The notes under the pieces: generated by a model
Database searches by the model: none
What the model was told of the DNA's origin: nothing
The model's input: the letters and a program-made list of their open reading frames with translations, nothing else
Source: a virus
Direction: 5' to 3' (one strand)
DNA length: 27,190 bases
Virus record (IMG/VR): IMGVR_UViG_3300025082_000054
Coordinates: 1-27,190 of that record
Shown: in pieces, positions 449 to 15,499 of the stretch
Layout of the letters: each line of letters begins with the position of its first letter
Numbering within the stretch: the first letter of the stretch is position 1
Program-made: the position numbers and the translations under genes

Positions 449-3427
449 ATGGCAATAACAACAAGAAAAAGATACAGTAAAGGTAAACGAGTAGATATGC
501 GACAAGGTGGTCGAGTAAGTTTTCAAAAAGGTGGTCCTGGCAGAACTCCAAGAGGTCCTAACAGCAGATCTGATAGAACAACTCGTGAGCCTAATGGTGA
601 TAGAACTACTCGTAGACCTCGCACTACTACTACAACACCTATACCTACGACTACAGTGACTACAACTCCTAGTGCTACTACAACTCCTAGTGCTACAACA
701 ACTCCTAGTGCTACTACAACTCCTAGTGCTACAACAACTCCTAGTGCTACAACAACTCCTAGTGCTACAACAACTCCTAGTGCTACAACAACTCCTGGTG
801 CTACTACAACTACAGCATTACCTACAACAACTACAACAACAGTTGCGCCTAGAGATCCGATTACTATTCCACCAAGTACAGGAGATTATACTCCACAATA
901 TGCAGATCGTACAGATCCACAAGCAGAAGCAGCTAGAGAATACGTACAACAAGCTGCAGAAGGAAAACTTCCAGCAGATGCAATAATACCTACTGCTGTT
1001 CAAACTGATAAAGGAATTCAATTTGAAGAAGATAAAATTCCTCAAATGGTAGATACAGGAGTAGCAACTGCAGGAGTAGCACAAGTAGGAGATGCAGAAG
1101 CAGTTTCAAAAGGAATTTCAACTGCAGCAGCAGATCCAGCAACTATTAGTGCGGCTACATACGATGCAGAAACAATATCTGGAAGAACTCCAGATGTTAT
1201 AGCTGCTGAAGGAGAAGTTACTAGAGAAGCAGAAGCAGAAGAGATTCGGCAACTAACTGAAAAAGCAGTAGCTGCAGGAATGCCTCCAGATGAAGCTCTG
1301 GAAAAAGCTAAAGCAGATCGTGTTGTTGGAGCTTTAAGCGCAGGAGCAAAAGCAGAAAAACAAACTGGAGTAGGCGCTCAAATTGCAGATACACCACAAG
1401 CAGAAGCAAAAGCAAGACAAGCAATCACAGGAGAAGCTCCGCAAGGAGATGAAGCACAAATAGGTGGTATACCTACTTTTACTGCAGCCACGAGACAGGC
1501 AGTAACAGGAACAGCACGAACAGGTGCGGCAGCATCGATGGTAGCAGAAGTAGGAGCATTGCCTCCTGATATTACAGCAGCTATTGTTGAAGATCCAGCT
1601 ACTGTAGAAGCTCAAATAGATGATCAACCTGTAGAAGTTCAAGCAGCAATTGCGGCATTACCTGAAGAAGCATTGGTTTCTTCACAAATGGAAACACTTA
1701 TAGCAGGTATAGAAGAAGGAACAACTCCTGCTTGGGCTAGACCAGCCGTAGCAAGAGTAGAAGAAATGCTTGCACAACGAGGCTTGGGTGCTTCAACAGT
1801 TGGTAGAGATGCATTGTTTAATGCTATTATACAAACTGCTTTACCAATGGCACAAAATAATGCACAAGCTTTACAACAACGTGCAGCACAAAACTTATCT
1901 AATCAGCAACAAGCCAACTTAGCACAATCTACACAAGATATGCAAAGACGAATGGCAAATCTTTCCAATCGTCAAACTGCTGAAAGTCAAACAGCACAAA
2001 TGGCACAACAGATTGCCGTACAGCAAGGACAGTTTAGACAAGAAGCTGTATTAACTTCGGCACAGCAACAACAGCAAACGAGAATGCAAAATTTGCAAAA
2101 TGCTCAACGTGCTGCTGAATTGAATACACAGCAACAACAGCAGATGAATATTCAAAACTTGGCAAATGCCCAGCAGATGGAAACTATGAATTTGCAGTTA
2201 GAATCTGAACGATTAGGTGCTGAATTTGGTGCTGAACAACAAACAAGACTTACCAAATTCCAAACTTCTTCTGAGTTCATGGCACAGAACGCAGCTTTTA
2301 CACAAGATATGAATAAAGCAAATCTTTCATCAGAAGAAAGATTAAATTTAGCAAACTTGTCAGCAATGAACCAAGCTGCTGCTGAAACTATGTCAAGTGC
2401 TGAAAAGACAGAGTTAGCTAATCTTCAAGCTAAAATGCAAGTAGGTATTACAAATGCTAATCTTGCTAATGCTATGGGTATTTCACAATTAAGTTCAGAT
2501 CAAGCAATAGCTATAAATAATGCACAAACTGTTGCAGGTATGGACATGACACAGTTTAGTGTAGATCAACAAACACAACTTGCAAATAGTAAATTTATGC
2601 AATCAACATTATTACAGGATTTTAATCAAAGACAACAAGCAGCTATGCAAAATGCTACAGCATTAGCAAGTCTTGATTTAGCAACAGTAGATCAACGAAC
2701 AAAACTTGCTGTAACTAATGCTCAAAATTTCTTGGCAATGGATATGGCAAATCTTAATAACGAACAACAAGCTAATGTATTAGAAGCTCAGATGGCACAG
2801 CAAGCTTTATTAAGTGACCAAAGTGCGACCAATGCTTCTAAACAGTTTAATGCTACTAGTATAAATCAAACTAATCAGTTTATGACAAACATAGCAACGC
2901 AGATAGATATAAATAATAAGACAAGAATGGATGCTATGGAACAGTTTAATGTAAGTGCTGATAATCAAGCAGAAGCTAGAAGATTTGCGGCAGAAACAGA
3001 TGTTTCTAAATTAAATGCACAGATAAGAACACAGGTTTCACAGTTTAATGATCAACAAGATTTTCAACGTGATCAATGGAACAAAGCAAACCAAACTGCT
3101 ATTATGCAATCAAATGTAGAGTGGAGAAGAAAAGCAAATACTATTGATACTGCAGCACAGAATGCTGTGAATCAGCAAAACGCTCAAAATGCTTTTGGAT
3201 TAAGTACACAAGCTATGACGTTTATGTGGCAAGAGCTTCGTGATCAAGCAAGTTATGTGTTTCAAGGAGAACAAAATGAAGCACAAAGACAAGCTGGATT
3301 GTTTAATACAATCTTAGGTCAAGCTGCAGAAATTAGAGATTGGGGAAAATTACAAGAACCATATGCAGATATGGTTGATAGTGTAAGCAGTTGGTTTGAC
3401 GTAGATCCACATACGGGTTCTTATTAA
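449..3427 (+). CDS. Large Gln/Asn-rich virion structural protein with mucin-like repeat
   Basis: This 992-aa protein has four visible regions. Residues 1-50 are basic and carry the peptide GGRVSFQKGG (20-29). Residues 59-132 are a Thr/Pro-rich linker with eight six-residue repeats (71-118). Residues 140-450 are Ala/Glu-rich. Residues 450-990 are a long Gln/Asn/Ala-rich, mostly helical region with a degenerate repeat of the type NLSNxQQA (for example NLSNQQQANLAQ and LNNEQQANVLEAQ), ending in a Trp/Phe-containing stretch. Such NLSNEQQA-like helical repeats are known to me from structural proteins of marine phages. No enzyme motif is visible. It is followed by a 28-base gap with a good AGGAG ribosome binding site for the next virion gene. 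A fibre-like or internal virion protein is the most reasonable call; the exact role is unknown. Confidence 0.8.
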   Translation: MAITTRKRYSKGKRVDMRQGGRVSFQKGGPGRTPRGPNSRSDRTTREPNGDRTTRRPRTTTTTPIPTTTVTTTPSATTTPSATTTPSATTTPSATTTPSATTTPSATTTPSATTTPGATTTTALPTTTTTTVAPRDPITIPPSTGDYTPQYADRTDPQAEAAREYVQQAAEGKLPADAIIPTAVQTDKGIQFEEDKIPQMVDTGVATAGVAQVGDAEAVSKGISTAAADPATISAATYDAETISGRTPDVIAAEGEVTREAEAEEIRQLTEKAVAAGMPPDEALEKAKADRVVGALSAGAKAEKQTGVGAQIADTPQAEAKARQAITGEAPQGDEAQIGGIPTFTAATRQAVTGTARTGAAASMVAEVGALPPDITAAIVEDPATVEAQIDDQPVEVQAAIAALPEEALVSSQMETLIAGIEEGTTPAWARPAVARVEEMLAQRGLGASTVGRDALFNAIIQTALPMAQNNAQALQQRAAQNLSNQQQANLAQSTQDMQRRMANLSNRQTAESQTAQMAQQIAVQQGQFRQEAVLTSAQQQQQTRMQNLQNAQRAAELNTQQQQQMNIQNLANAQQMETMNLQLESERLGAEFGAEQQTRLTKFQTSSEFMAQNAAFTQDMNKANLSSEERLNLANLSAMNQAAAETMSSAEKTELANLQAKMQVGITNANLANAMGISQLSSDQAIAINNAQTVAGMDMTQFSVDQQTQLANSKFMQSTLLQDFNQRQQAAMQNATALASLDLATVDQRTKLAVTNAQNFLAMDMANLNNEQQANVLEAQMAQQALLSDQSATNASKQFNATSINQTNQFMTNIATQIDINNKTRMDAMEQFNVSADNQAEARRFAAETDVSKLNAQIRTQVSQFNDQQDFQRDQWNKANQTAIMQSNVEWRRKANTIDTAAQNAVNQQNAQNAFGLSTQAMTFMWQELRDQASYVFQGEQNEAQRQAGLFNTILGQAAEIRDWGKLQEPYADMVDSVSSWFDVDPHTGSY
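659..802 (+). repeat. 18-bp tandem repeat encoding (TTTPSA)x7 + TTTPGA
   Basis: Eight uninterrupted 18-base units encode seven copies of TTTPSA and one TTTPGA (residues 71-118 of the 992-aa protein). Units differ mainly in the first Thr codon (ACT or ACA), which indicates recent unit duplication. The result is a mucin-like Thr/Ser/Pro linker, likely extended and possibly O-glycosylated. Copy number may vary between related phages. Confidence 0.95.
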
Positions 3428-13964: not shown

Positions 13965-13993
13965 TTGACAAATCTTAAAATACTTCCTATAAT
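13965..13993 (+). promoter_or_regulatory. Consensus sigma70 promoter
   Basis: TTGACA at 13965-13970 and TATAAT at 13988-13993 are separated by exactly 17 bases, so both hexamers and the spacing match the sigma70 consensus. It begins right after the stop of the giant virion gene and would start RNA at about base 14000, which is also the A of the next ATG. It would drive the small membrane-protein cluster and perhaps hsp20. Its upstream part (AAAACTTGACA) is shared with the - strand promoter at 26422-26450. Confidence 0.85.
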
Positions 13994-14915: not shown

Positions 14916-14940
14916 CAAACCATTACTAGGCAGATAAAGT

Positions 14941-15046
14941 CCTCTTAGAACGCTCATACGAGGCTCTGTGAGAGGCATTAACGAAGCATACCCTAAATGG
15001 GTGTGTTTCATAACATTAATCTTGCTTATAAATAAGGAGAAATAAA
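14941..15046 (+). promoter_or_regulatory. ROSE-like RNA thermometer in the hsp20 5' UTR
   Basis: Three helices can be drawn before the hsp20 start. Helix 1 pairs CCTCT (14941-14945) with AGAGG (14971-14975). Helix 2 pairs seven bases (14987-14993 with 14999-15005) around a UAAAU loop. Helix 3 pairs 15020-15028 with 15033-15040 and holds the Shine-Dalgarno AAGGAG. Helix 3 contains UUGCU paired to AGGA with one bulged G (15024), which is the hallmark U(U/C)GCU of ROSE thermometers. Such elements are known before small heat-shock genes of alpha- and gammaproteobacteria. Heat would melt helix 3 and free the ribosome site. Regulation is inferred from this match. Confidence 0.65.
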
Positions 15047-15499
15047 ATGATTAGACGTAACTCAAACCTAACTCGCTATGGGTTAGTAGATTTCGGAGAT
15101 CCCATATTTTCATCATTATTTGTAGGGTTTGACAGACTCTTCGAGAACATGACACAAATGTCTGCTGGTTCTAAAAGTCTGCCAACTTACCCTCCATATA
15201 ATGTGATAAAAGATGGAGATCAATATACAATCGAGGTTGCTCTAGCAGGTATCGACAAGAAAGATCTTGCGGTTGAAGCACAAGAAAACACACTCAGTGT
15301 TTCTTATGAGTCTTCTAGTAAAGATGAAGCCGAGAATAAACTATACAGAGGAATAGCGCAACGCTCTTTCCGAAGACAGTTTAGTTTGGCTGAAGATGTC
15401 GAAGTAACAGGCGCTACATTTAAGAATGGCTTGTTGAAGATAGATCTTGAAAGGATCATACCTGAAGAGAAGCGACCTAAATTAATTAAAATTAAATAA
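15047..15499 (+). CDS. Small heat-shock protein, Hsp20/IbpA type
   Basis: This 150-aa protein has the alpha-crystallin domain at about residues 50-140. It contains PYNVIKDGDQYTIEVALAG, the conserved GATFKNGLLKIDLER (A-x-x-x-x-G-L-L-x-I motif near the end of the domain) and a C-terminal IKI (I-x-I) anchor. Small heat-shock proteins are ATP-independent holdases that bind unfolding proteins and form oligomers. The N-terminal part (FSSLFVGFDRLFENM) matches IbpA-like proteins of bacteria. In a phage it may protect host or virion proteins during late infection. The strong AAGGAG site seven bases before the ATG supports the start and is itself hidden in the leader hairpin. The next small gene follows immediately (TAAATG). 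Confidence 0.95.
   Translation: MIRRNSNLTRYGLVDFGDPIFSSLFVGFDRLFENMTQMSAGSKSLPTYPPYNVIKDGDQYTIEVALAGIDKKDLAVEAQENTLSVSYESSSKDEAENKLYRGIAQRSFRRQFSLAEDVEVTGATFKNGLLKIDLERIIPEEKRPKLIKIK

Follow-up and report, generated by a model that had tools for sequence, protein, structure and literature searches.

The leader of the hsp20 gene in the phage DNA analysed here, a stretch of 27,190 bases referred to throughout as the window and belonging to a marine phage, is probably a ROSE-like RNA thermometer of the short two-hairpin kind, a device that phages have retained and use in front of chaperone genes. The presumptive switch is the terminal hairpin of the leader (hairpin 3; 15020–15040, + strand), in which UCUU[G15024]CUUA is paired with UAAGGAGA, as read directly from the sequence, concealing the SD of hsp20 (AAGGAG; 15034–15039, + strand). 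The hairpin segment reads UCUUGCUUAUAAAUAAGGAGA, followed by AAAUAA and the ATG at 15047. Pairs are formed, abbreviating positions to their last two digits, between 20-40, 21-39, 22-38, 23-37 (U-G), 25-36, 26-35, 27-34 and 28-33, enclosing a loop of 4 bases and leaving G15024 unpaired and bulged, both by sequence and in the ViennaRNA fold. The same hairpin was returned by ViennaRNA for the isolated 21-mer at 20 °C, with a dG of −4.3 at that temperature that weakens to −1.8 at 37 °C, and it is conserved in relatives. Directly downstream lies hsp20 (15047–15499, + strand), encoding a small heat-shock protein of 150 aa with matches to PF00011 (E 6.8e-17) and PHROG 432 (E 2.1e-37). The initial annotation had claimed a UUGCU–SD pairing with one G bulged, a phage hsp20 behind it and two further hairpins ahead of it, and all of these were borne out, the additional hairpins being located at 14939–14976 and 14983–15009. 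The pattern CTTGCTN{0,8}AGGAG has 1 match in the 27,190-base window, at the hsp20 SD, compared with a mean of 0.10 in shuffled windows. The region of the hairpin 3 loop (about 15027–15034) also has the sequence TATAAATA, which matches a late promoter box of the T4 type exactly; the match is probably due to chance, and a late promoter at this position was rejected because almost no leader would remain.

ROSE-like elements are described in two reports as having U(U/C)GCU imperfectly paired to the SD, a bulged G and two to four hairpins with the SD in the last, a small heat-shock gene downstream being usual but not universal (PMC11342760, PMC11182007). The window displays the imperfect U(U/C)GCU–SD pairing and the bulged G, and has three hairpins, the last of which contains the SD, immediately ahead of a small heat-shock gene. 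UUUU, the mark of fourU elements, is absent from the 5′ arm (15020–15028). A scan with the Rfam ROSE models, proposed in the initial annotation as a check, reached no curated cut-off; indeed, at these cut-offs there were zero Rfam matches in the whole window. The best match was to ROSE_3 (RF02523) at 14983–15052, aligned along the full length of the model; it scores 26.9 bits where 43 would be required (E 0.0007 for the 231 bases searched), and ROSE_2 (RF01832, cut-off 65 bits) gave no match in the window. Of 14 related loci, three (L033, L055 and L060) have a weak ROSE_3 match in the corresponding position. Twenty phage loci searched at the Rfam gathering thresholds yielded only tRNAs and no ROSE, and a mixed set of 20 loci searched likewise yielded ROSE_2 for two enterobacterial controls (L207 and L374; Salmonella and Enterobacter; 95 and 82 bits) and, for the other 18, SAR11-type loci included, a single tRNA and no ROSE. 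Since the Rfam ROSE models score below their curated cut-offs, the window element is designated ROSE-like, and is not a member of an Rfam ROSE family; the annotated identity is thus supported with respect to core motif, bulged G and covariation, and not with respect to the Rfam ROSE families. The window also has a weak match to freshwater-2 RNA (RF02980) at 14988–15049, with 25.4 against 49.9 bits, the consensus of which likewise ends AAGGAGAAAA..AUG, and in locus L052 a manA RNA (RF01745, 60.1 bits; 2048–2254) stops about 200 bases short of hsp20, which there too has a thermometer-like leader.

The two upstream hairpins of the window differ in character. Hairpin 1 (14939–14976, + strand) has a bulged G, G14952, between C–G pairs and, by inspection of folds, is the counterpart of the bulged-G hairpin conserved in other phage leaders. 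Hairpin 2 (14983–15009, + strand) is a perfect 11-bp hairpin devoid of a bulge; comparison with relatives, among which L015 lacks it, suggests that it is an insert of the window phage's clade. The 161-nt leader region as a whole folds better than 200 of 200 shuffled sequences (z −3.1). The hsp20 leader occupies a gap of 131 bases; five of the seven other + strand gaps are of 28 bases or fewer, and the two directly before the hsp20 leader are of 185 and 132 bases, a 52-codon ORF perhaps occupying part of the former.

Conservation was examined in 247 loci, comprising 80 selected by protein similarity with the window Hsp20, 80 with the Hsp20 of cyanophage Syn33 and 80 with that of HTVC115P, together with six named phages (among 499 phage records with a match) and the window; removal of two loci without a start codon and five with fewer than 45 bases before the start left 240 leaders. 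U(U/C)GCU is present 5′ of the SD in 222 of these 240 phage hsp20 leaders (UUGCU in 92, UCGCU in 130) and, opposite the SD, in 125 of 135 distinct leaders, as opposed to three of 204 distinct leaders of other genes from the same loci. A strict descriptor requires that the terminal hairpin have at least three outer pairs and that a hairpin with a single bulged G lie upstream of it. Of 159 distinct phage leaders, 136 matched it in full, 17 others having the terminal hairpin only and six neither, whereas among 273 control leaders none matched in full, one had the terminal hairpin only and 272 had neither. All six named phages (HTVC115P, HTVC103P, HTVC008M, P-SSM4, S-PM2 and Syn33) carry the element.

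The ten of 135 distinct leaders that lack U(U/C)GCU mostly support the rule. Four of them (L064/L067, L065/L071, L341 and L350) have the motif and an upstream hairpin of the same type before a small ORF instead; this ORF, of 65–79 codons, ends 10–13 bases before hsp20 and has the element in its leader, and the same pairing of genes is found in L143 and L478. In three more (the L338/L342 group, L345/L347 and L367) the sequence is ACGCUUAACGGAGGUUAU, the outer arms and SD having changed together and the bulged G being retained. Two (L059/L061 and L079) have UAGCU, and the last (L241) is situated where its contig stops. No convincing Pfam match was obtained for the small ORF, one copy having a match to Phasin_2 (E 0.014) that is below cut-off.

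With regard to covariation, the terminal hairpin leaves little room for change, the SD and the strand opposite it being almost constant. The third outer pair of the terminal stem is formed in 76 of 131 leaders, as UA, AU or CG, compared with 44 in shuffles (maximum 58); no covariation is seen at the next two outer pairs, the fourth and fifth (51/131 and 50/118, against 53.6 and 47.0 in shuffles). The upstream hairpin is far more informative. Amongst 77 non-redundant leaders, from which those shorter than 78 bases or at least 80% alike to a kept leader had been removed, 67 have the bulged-G hairpin, whereas shuffles gave a mean of 1.9 and a maximum of 6. Whole-leader MAFFT alignments misplaced the 3′ arms, and pairs were therefore counted on anchored, ungapped arms. 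With arms taken from the GCC..GG anchor alone (52 of the 77 leaders, 45 of them distinct, 4-base loops being preferred), 244 of 270 cells of the outer stem are paired, against 137 in shuffles (maximum 158); an earlier anchor rule, which placed the 3′ arm one base off at UUCG loops, gave 189 of 258 cells against 131. An ungapped set of 27 leaders (26 distinct), which leans towards structure because it was mostly drawn from hairpin-forming leaders, has 93.8% of its cells paired, as opposed to 64.5%, and 63 double changes, as opposed to 20.5. Its covariation score is 0.788, whereas shuffles score 0.206 and slid arms 0.05–0.14. These counts concern the relatives, the window's own upstream hairpins lying outside them. 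Among the leaders closest to that of the window, five (the window's own, L002, L005, L013 and L015) fail the strict upstream-hairpin test within the 58 bases examined; inspection of their folds places the bulged-G hairpin further upstream with a plain hairpin in between, except for L015, which lacks the plain hairpin, and the middle hairpin of the window is without the conserved bulge. The compensatory changes expected of the ROSE-like class are accordingly found in relatives, and the absence of covariation, named beforehand as grounds for abandoning the idea, did not materialise: core motif, bulged G and upstream hairpin are all kept. The annotated element is present in this hsp20-bearing phage and is not special to it, since it occurs also in many hsp20 phages, ahead of viral dnaK and in SAR11-type bacteria.

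The association with chaperone genes was recovered also when protein information was disregarded. Viral contigs were scanned with the pattern CTTGCTTN{0,6}AAGGAGN{4,9}ATG, which returned at least 120 stretches, of which 80 loci were kept, and in 68 of the 80 the ATG opens Hsp20. The remaining 12 comprise two dnaK genes, two small ORFs with an upstream hairpin (L090 and L143) and eight that appear chance-like. In an equivalent scan for the UCGCU version, 62 of 80 were hsp20, 54 with the upstream hairpin, and a further two (L486 and L515) look like Hsp20 cut by the contig end. A third dnaK with the element was found in L101, which also has an hsp20 with an element of its own. The leaders of 80 viral loci related to the L101 DnaK were then considered, two of which had no usable leader: the terminal hairpin is present in 77 of 78 (51 distinct), 36 of which also have the strict upstream hairpin, one leader having neither. 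The T4-type capsid protein gp23 was detected in three of eight dnaK records examined (contigs of 214–383 kb), a search for gp23 in the other five giving no match. A TATAAATA-like box lies ahead of many of the viral dnaK leaders (L084, L101, L105 and L573–L652). The U(U/C)GCU–SD motif was also observed before other small ORFs, in L461, L490, L530, L524 and L090; no hsp20 was found directly after these ORFs, which are possible further targets of the element. A peroxiredoxin-like match in L465 was set aside because the next ORF, named by eye as ahpF-like, suggests that the DNA may be bacterial.

The nearest cellular Hsp20 proteins found are about 47% identical to that of the window and belong mostly to uncultured Alphaproteobacteria, with some from Pelagibacterales/Pelagibacteraceae; SAR11-type is used here as a label for this group of records. 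Both hairpins are present in 43 of 45 distinct cellular hsp20 leaders, nearly all SAR11-type, and in the SAR11-type loci (L369–L448) the ROSE-like element, which is uncalled by Rfam, lies within roughly 110 bases before hsp20. The motif occurs once each in three of five cellular genomes searched and is absent from the other two, the leaders of which have a variant. No published description of the SAR11-type leader element was found in the open-licence PubMed Central literature. The cellular and phage leaders differ in their promoters: a sigma-32-like promoter, CTTGAA..CCC, is present in 38 of 45 cellular leaders as opposed to one of 159 phage leaders. In 26 of 67 phage leaders the upstream hairpin is instead preceded by a box resembling TATAAATA, which we take to be the T4 late promoter, compared with 2.5% at random positions, and in 12 of 67 by a sigma-70-like promoter just before the hairpin, compared with 4.7%. 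In HTVC115P and HTVC103P this is a perfect TTGACA-17-TATAAT ending 6–7 bases before the hairpin. An equally perfect sigma-70-type match in the window (13965–13993, + strand), identified by consensus alone, sits between a 1691-codon ORF and the hsp20 cassette and is the nearest strong one upstream of the cassette, about 1 kb away. The DNA polymerase of the window is nearest, among phage records, to those of Pelagibacter phages HTVC115P, HTVC103P and HTVC104P (51–49% identity), and HTVC115P has a similar layout, in which hsp20 closes a block of long unnamed ORFs and faces replication genes; the host of the window phage is likely to be SAR11-type. Elsewhere in the window, a 992-codon ORF (449–3427) contains successive TTTPSA repeats and is rich in Q/N in its middle part.

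In the thermometer reading, the UUGCU strand would pair with the SD in the last hairpin at low temperature and keep ribosomes off. Because the bulged G and the U–G pair make this hairpin weak, warming would melt it and allow Hsp20 to be made; we infer both the melting and its effect on translation. The upstream hairpins are stable and probably assist folding of the terminal hairpin. By analogy, then, the phage element would hold Hsp20 low in the cold and release it on warming. We likewise infer a direction of transfer in which phages kept the RNA element and not the sigma-32 promoter; lacking that promoter, they would rely on phage or sigma-70 promoters for transcription, with translation still heat-responsive. 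The device is common to SAR11-type hsp20 and, in form, to proteobacterial ibpA, and in other phages the same element stands before dnaK or before the small gene ahead of hsp20.

It is also conceivable, if unlikely, that the leader serves primarily to bind Hsp20, such that free Hsp20 blocks translation until it becomes busy on aggregates; the switch would then respond to aggregation in the course of infection, and heat would be sensed only indirectly. The upstream hairpin lies off the SD and yet is conserved as strongly as the terminal hairpin, and the presence of the element before dnaK and the small gene near hsp20 is as expected of a shared regulator. IbpA of E. coli, according to Miwa and Taguchi, reportedly controls itself through its own leader, which we count in favour of Hsp20 binding. 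The terminal hairpin of the Pseudomonas leader, however, gives heat control by itself (PMC3669281), and a docking site for Hsp20 and a thermometer are mutually compatible.

That the hairpins serve only to fix a constant low rate of translation, or to protect the mRNA, with no response at natural temperatures, seems improbable, although folding predictions lend it some weight. The SD is predicted to be less often unpaired at 20 °C in phage hsp20 leaders than in controls (medians 0.24 and 0.49 for 77 and 201 leaders; P about 1e-5), whereas the predicted opening from 20 to 37 °C, at 0.057 against 0.050, does not differ from that of other genes. A 5′ hairpin may, moreover, stabilise mRNA, as noted in the Pseudomonas work (PMC3669281). 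Counting against the thermometer itself, nearest-neighbour folding shows no steady preference for the hairpin, the partition function giving terminal hairpin probabilities anywhere from 0.00 to 0.99 over 29 leaders. Non-standard pairs, which have been reported for ROSE, are left out of account by such models, so that a switch is neither proved nor disproved by them. The predicted hairpin energies (dG37 of −0.7 for SAR11-type L371, −1.8 for the window, −2.8 to −3.0 for cyanophages P-SSM4, S-PM2 and Syn33, and −4.6 for Salmonella) would fit a cool-water range, as a trend across 17 hand-picked leaders. What argues against a constant rate is that a weak U(U/C)GCU core with a bulged G has been conserved, rather than a stable stem, and that the element is associated with chaperone genes.

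A further alternative, and quite an improbable one, is that the thermometer has decayed in the window phage itself, the inserted hairpin and a competing strand leaving the SD open. Hairpin 2 is specific to the clade, and a possible competing strand (14927–14935, + strand), known from prediction only, could pair with 15019–15028 and open the SD in long transcripts. The model favours this pairing for an RNA whose 5′ end is at 14926 or earlier, whereas hairpin 3 forms when the end is at 14931 or later, with a probability of 0.96 for the C–G pair at 20 °C. In the long leader at 20 °C the SD is predicted to be 54% unpaired and hairpin 3 to have a probability of 0.08. Even so, this balance is still temperature-shifted, the predicted probability of hairpin 3 being 0.36 at 10 °C and 0.03 at 30 °C; hairpin 3 is intact, with a core identical to that of relatives; and leaders L002, L003 and L004 of the same clade keep the hairpin with a long leader (0.86–0.97 at 20 °C). 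The outcome for the competing strand differs among relatives in predicted folds. Finally, the idea that an A/U-rich leader complements a strong SD merely by chance, which the shortness of the motif and a genome of 35% G+C might have invited, has a negligible probability and is refuted by the leader counts and the motif-only search given above.

If, then, the element is a thermometer, viruses would appear to carry their own heat-responsive control of protein folding. A broader proposal, on which we consider the arguments evenly balanced, is of a phage-owned translational heat-shock regulon, in which aquatic phages have a ROSE-type module, freed from sigma-32, in front of hsp20, of dnaK and of a small gene ahead of hsp20. 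The virus would thereby set its chaperone supply by temperature, irrespective of heat-shock transcription in the host; the upstream hairpin may also dock Hsp20, such that both heat and aggregation are sensed. Phage RNA thermometers have been thought rare, and the present element, a single class, is encountered repeatedly among T4-like cyanophages, pelagiphages and many phage contigs that are unclassified. Provided that it works, a single RNA would suffice to test how viral infection in the sea depends on temperature, the absence of the sigma-32 promoter from phages would reveal the half of heat control that it pays to keep, and nature would offer a large collection of cool-water thermometers. 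The class itself is known; what appears to be new is its presence in viruses, detached from sigma-32 and also ahead of dnaK. In the open-licence PubMed Central literature neither a ROSE element nor an RNA thermometer was found to be reported ahead of a phage hsp20 or dnaK, which does not amount to proof that no such report exists.

Thermometers described previously in phages, as listed in a 2024 paper, are those of lambda cIII, SP-beta blyA and a sigma-70 gene of gut Caudoviricetes, and its authors regarded their previous find as only the second in a phage genome (PMC11182007). The blyA and sigma-70 examples are of the fourU type and cIII relies on alternative folds; all are single cases before non-chaperone genes, unlike the phage hsp20 element. 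The cyanophage genes considered here were treated, as proteins, in a 2013 study, according to which cyanophage sHSPs have more in common with bacterial class A than with the sHSPs of cyanobacteria; a search of the main text for thermometer, ROSE or untranslated region gave none of these terms (PMC3827213). Among ROSE-like RNAs, deletion of the bulged G from another member lowered heat induction, and elements before ABC transporter genes are in print (PMC11342760). A review states that ROSE is always tied to small heat-shock genes (PMC4166951), with which the element before dnaK contrasts. ROSE_2 of enterobacterial ibpA (RF01832), which the strict descriptor also finds, shares the U(U/C)GCU core, the bulged-G upstream hairpin and the terminal SD hairpin, the latter being much stronger (dG37 of −4.6 in Salmonella against −1.8 in the window). 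The SAR11-type hsp20 leader has both hairpins as in phages but, unlike them, a sigma-32-like promoter. A close parallel is provided by Pseudomonas ibpA, an experimentally proven short ROSE-like thermometer of two hairpins, the first of which is stable while the second melts with heat and suffices alone for control (PMC3669281). The phage leaders resemble it in having two hairpins, a stable 5′ hairpin, U(U/C)GCU–SD pairing in the 3′ hairpin and a small heat-shock gene downstream. They differ in that the Pseudomonas element is cellular and sigma-32-dependent, whereas the phage leaders have phage-late-like or sigma-70-like promoters and occur also before dnaK, and the window has, in addition, a third hairpin between the two.
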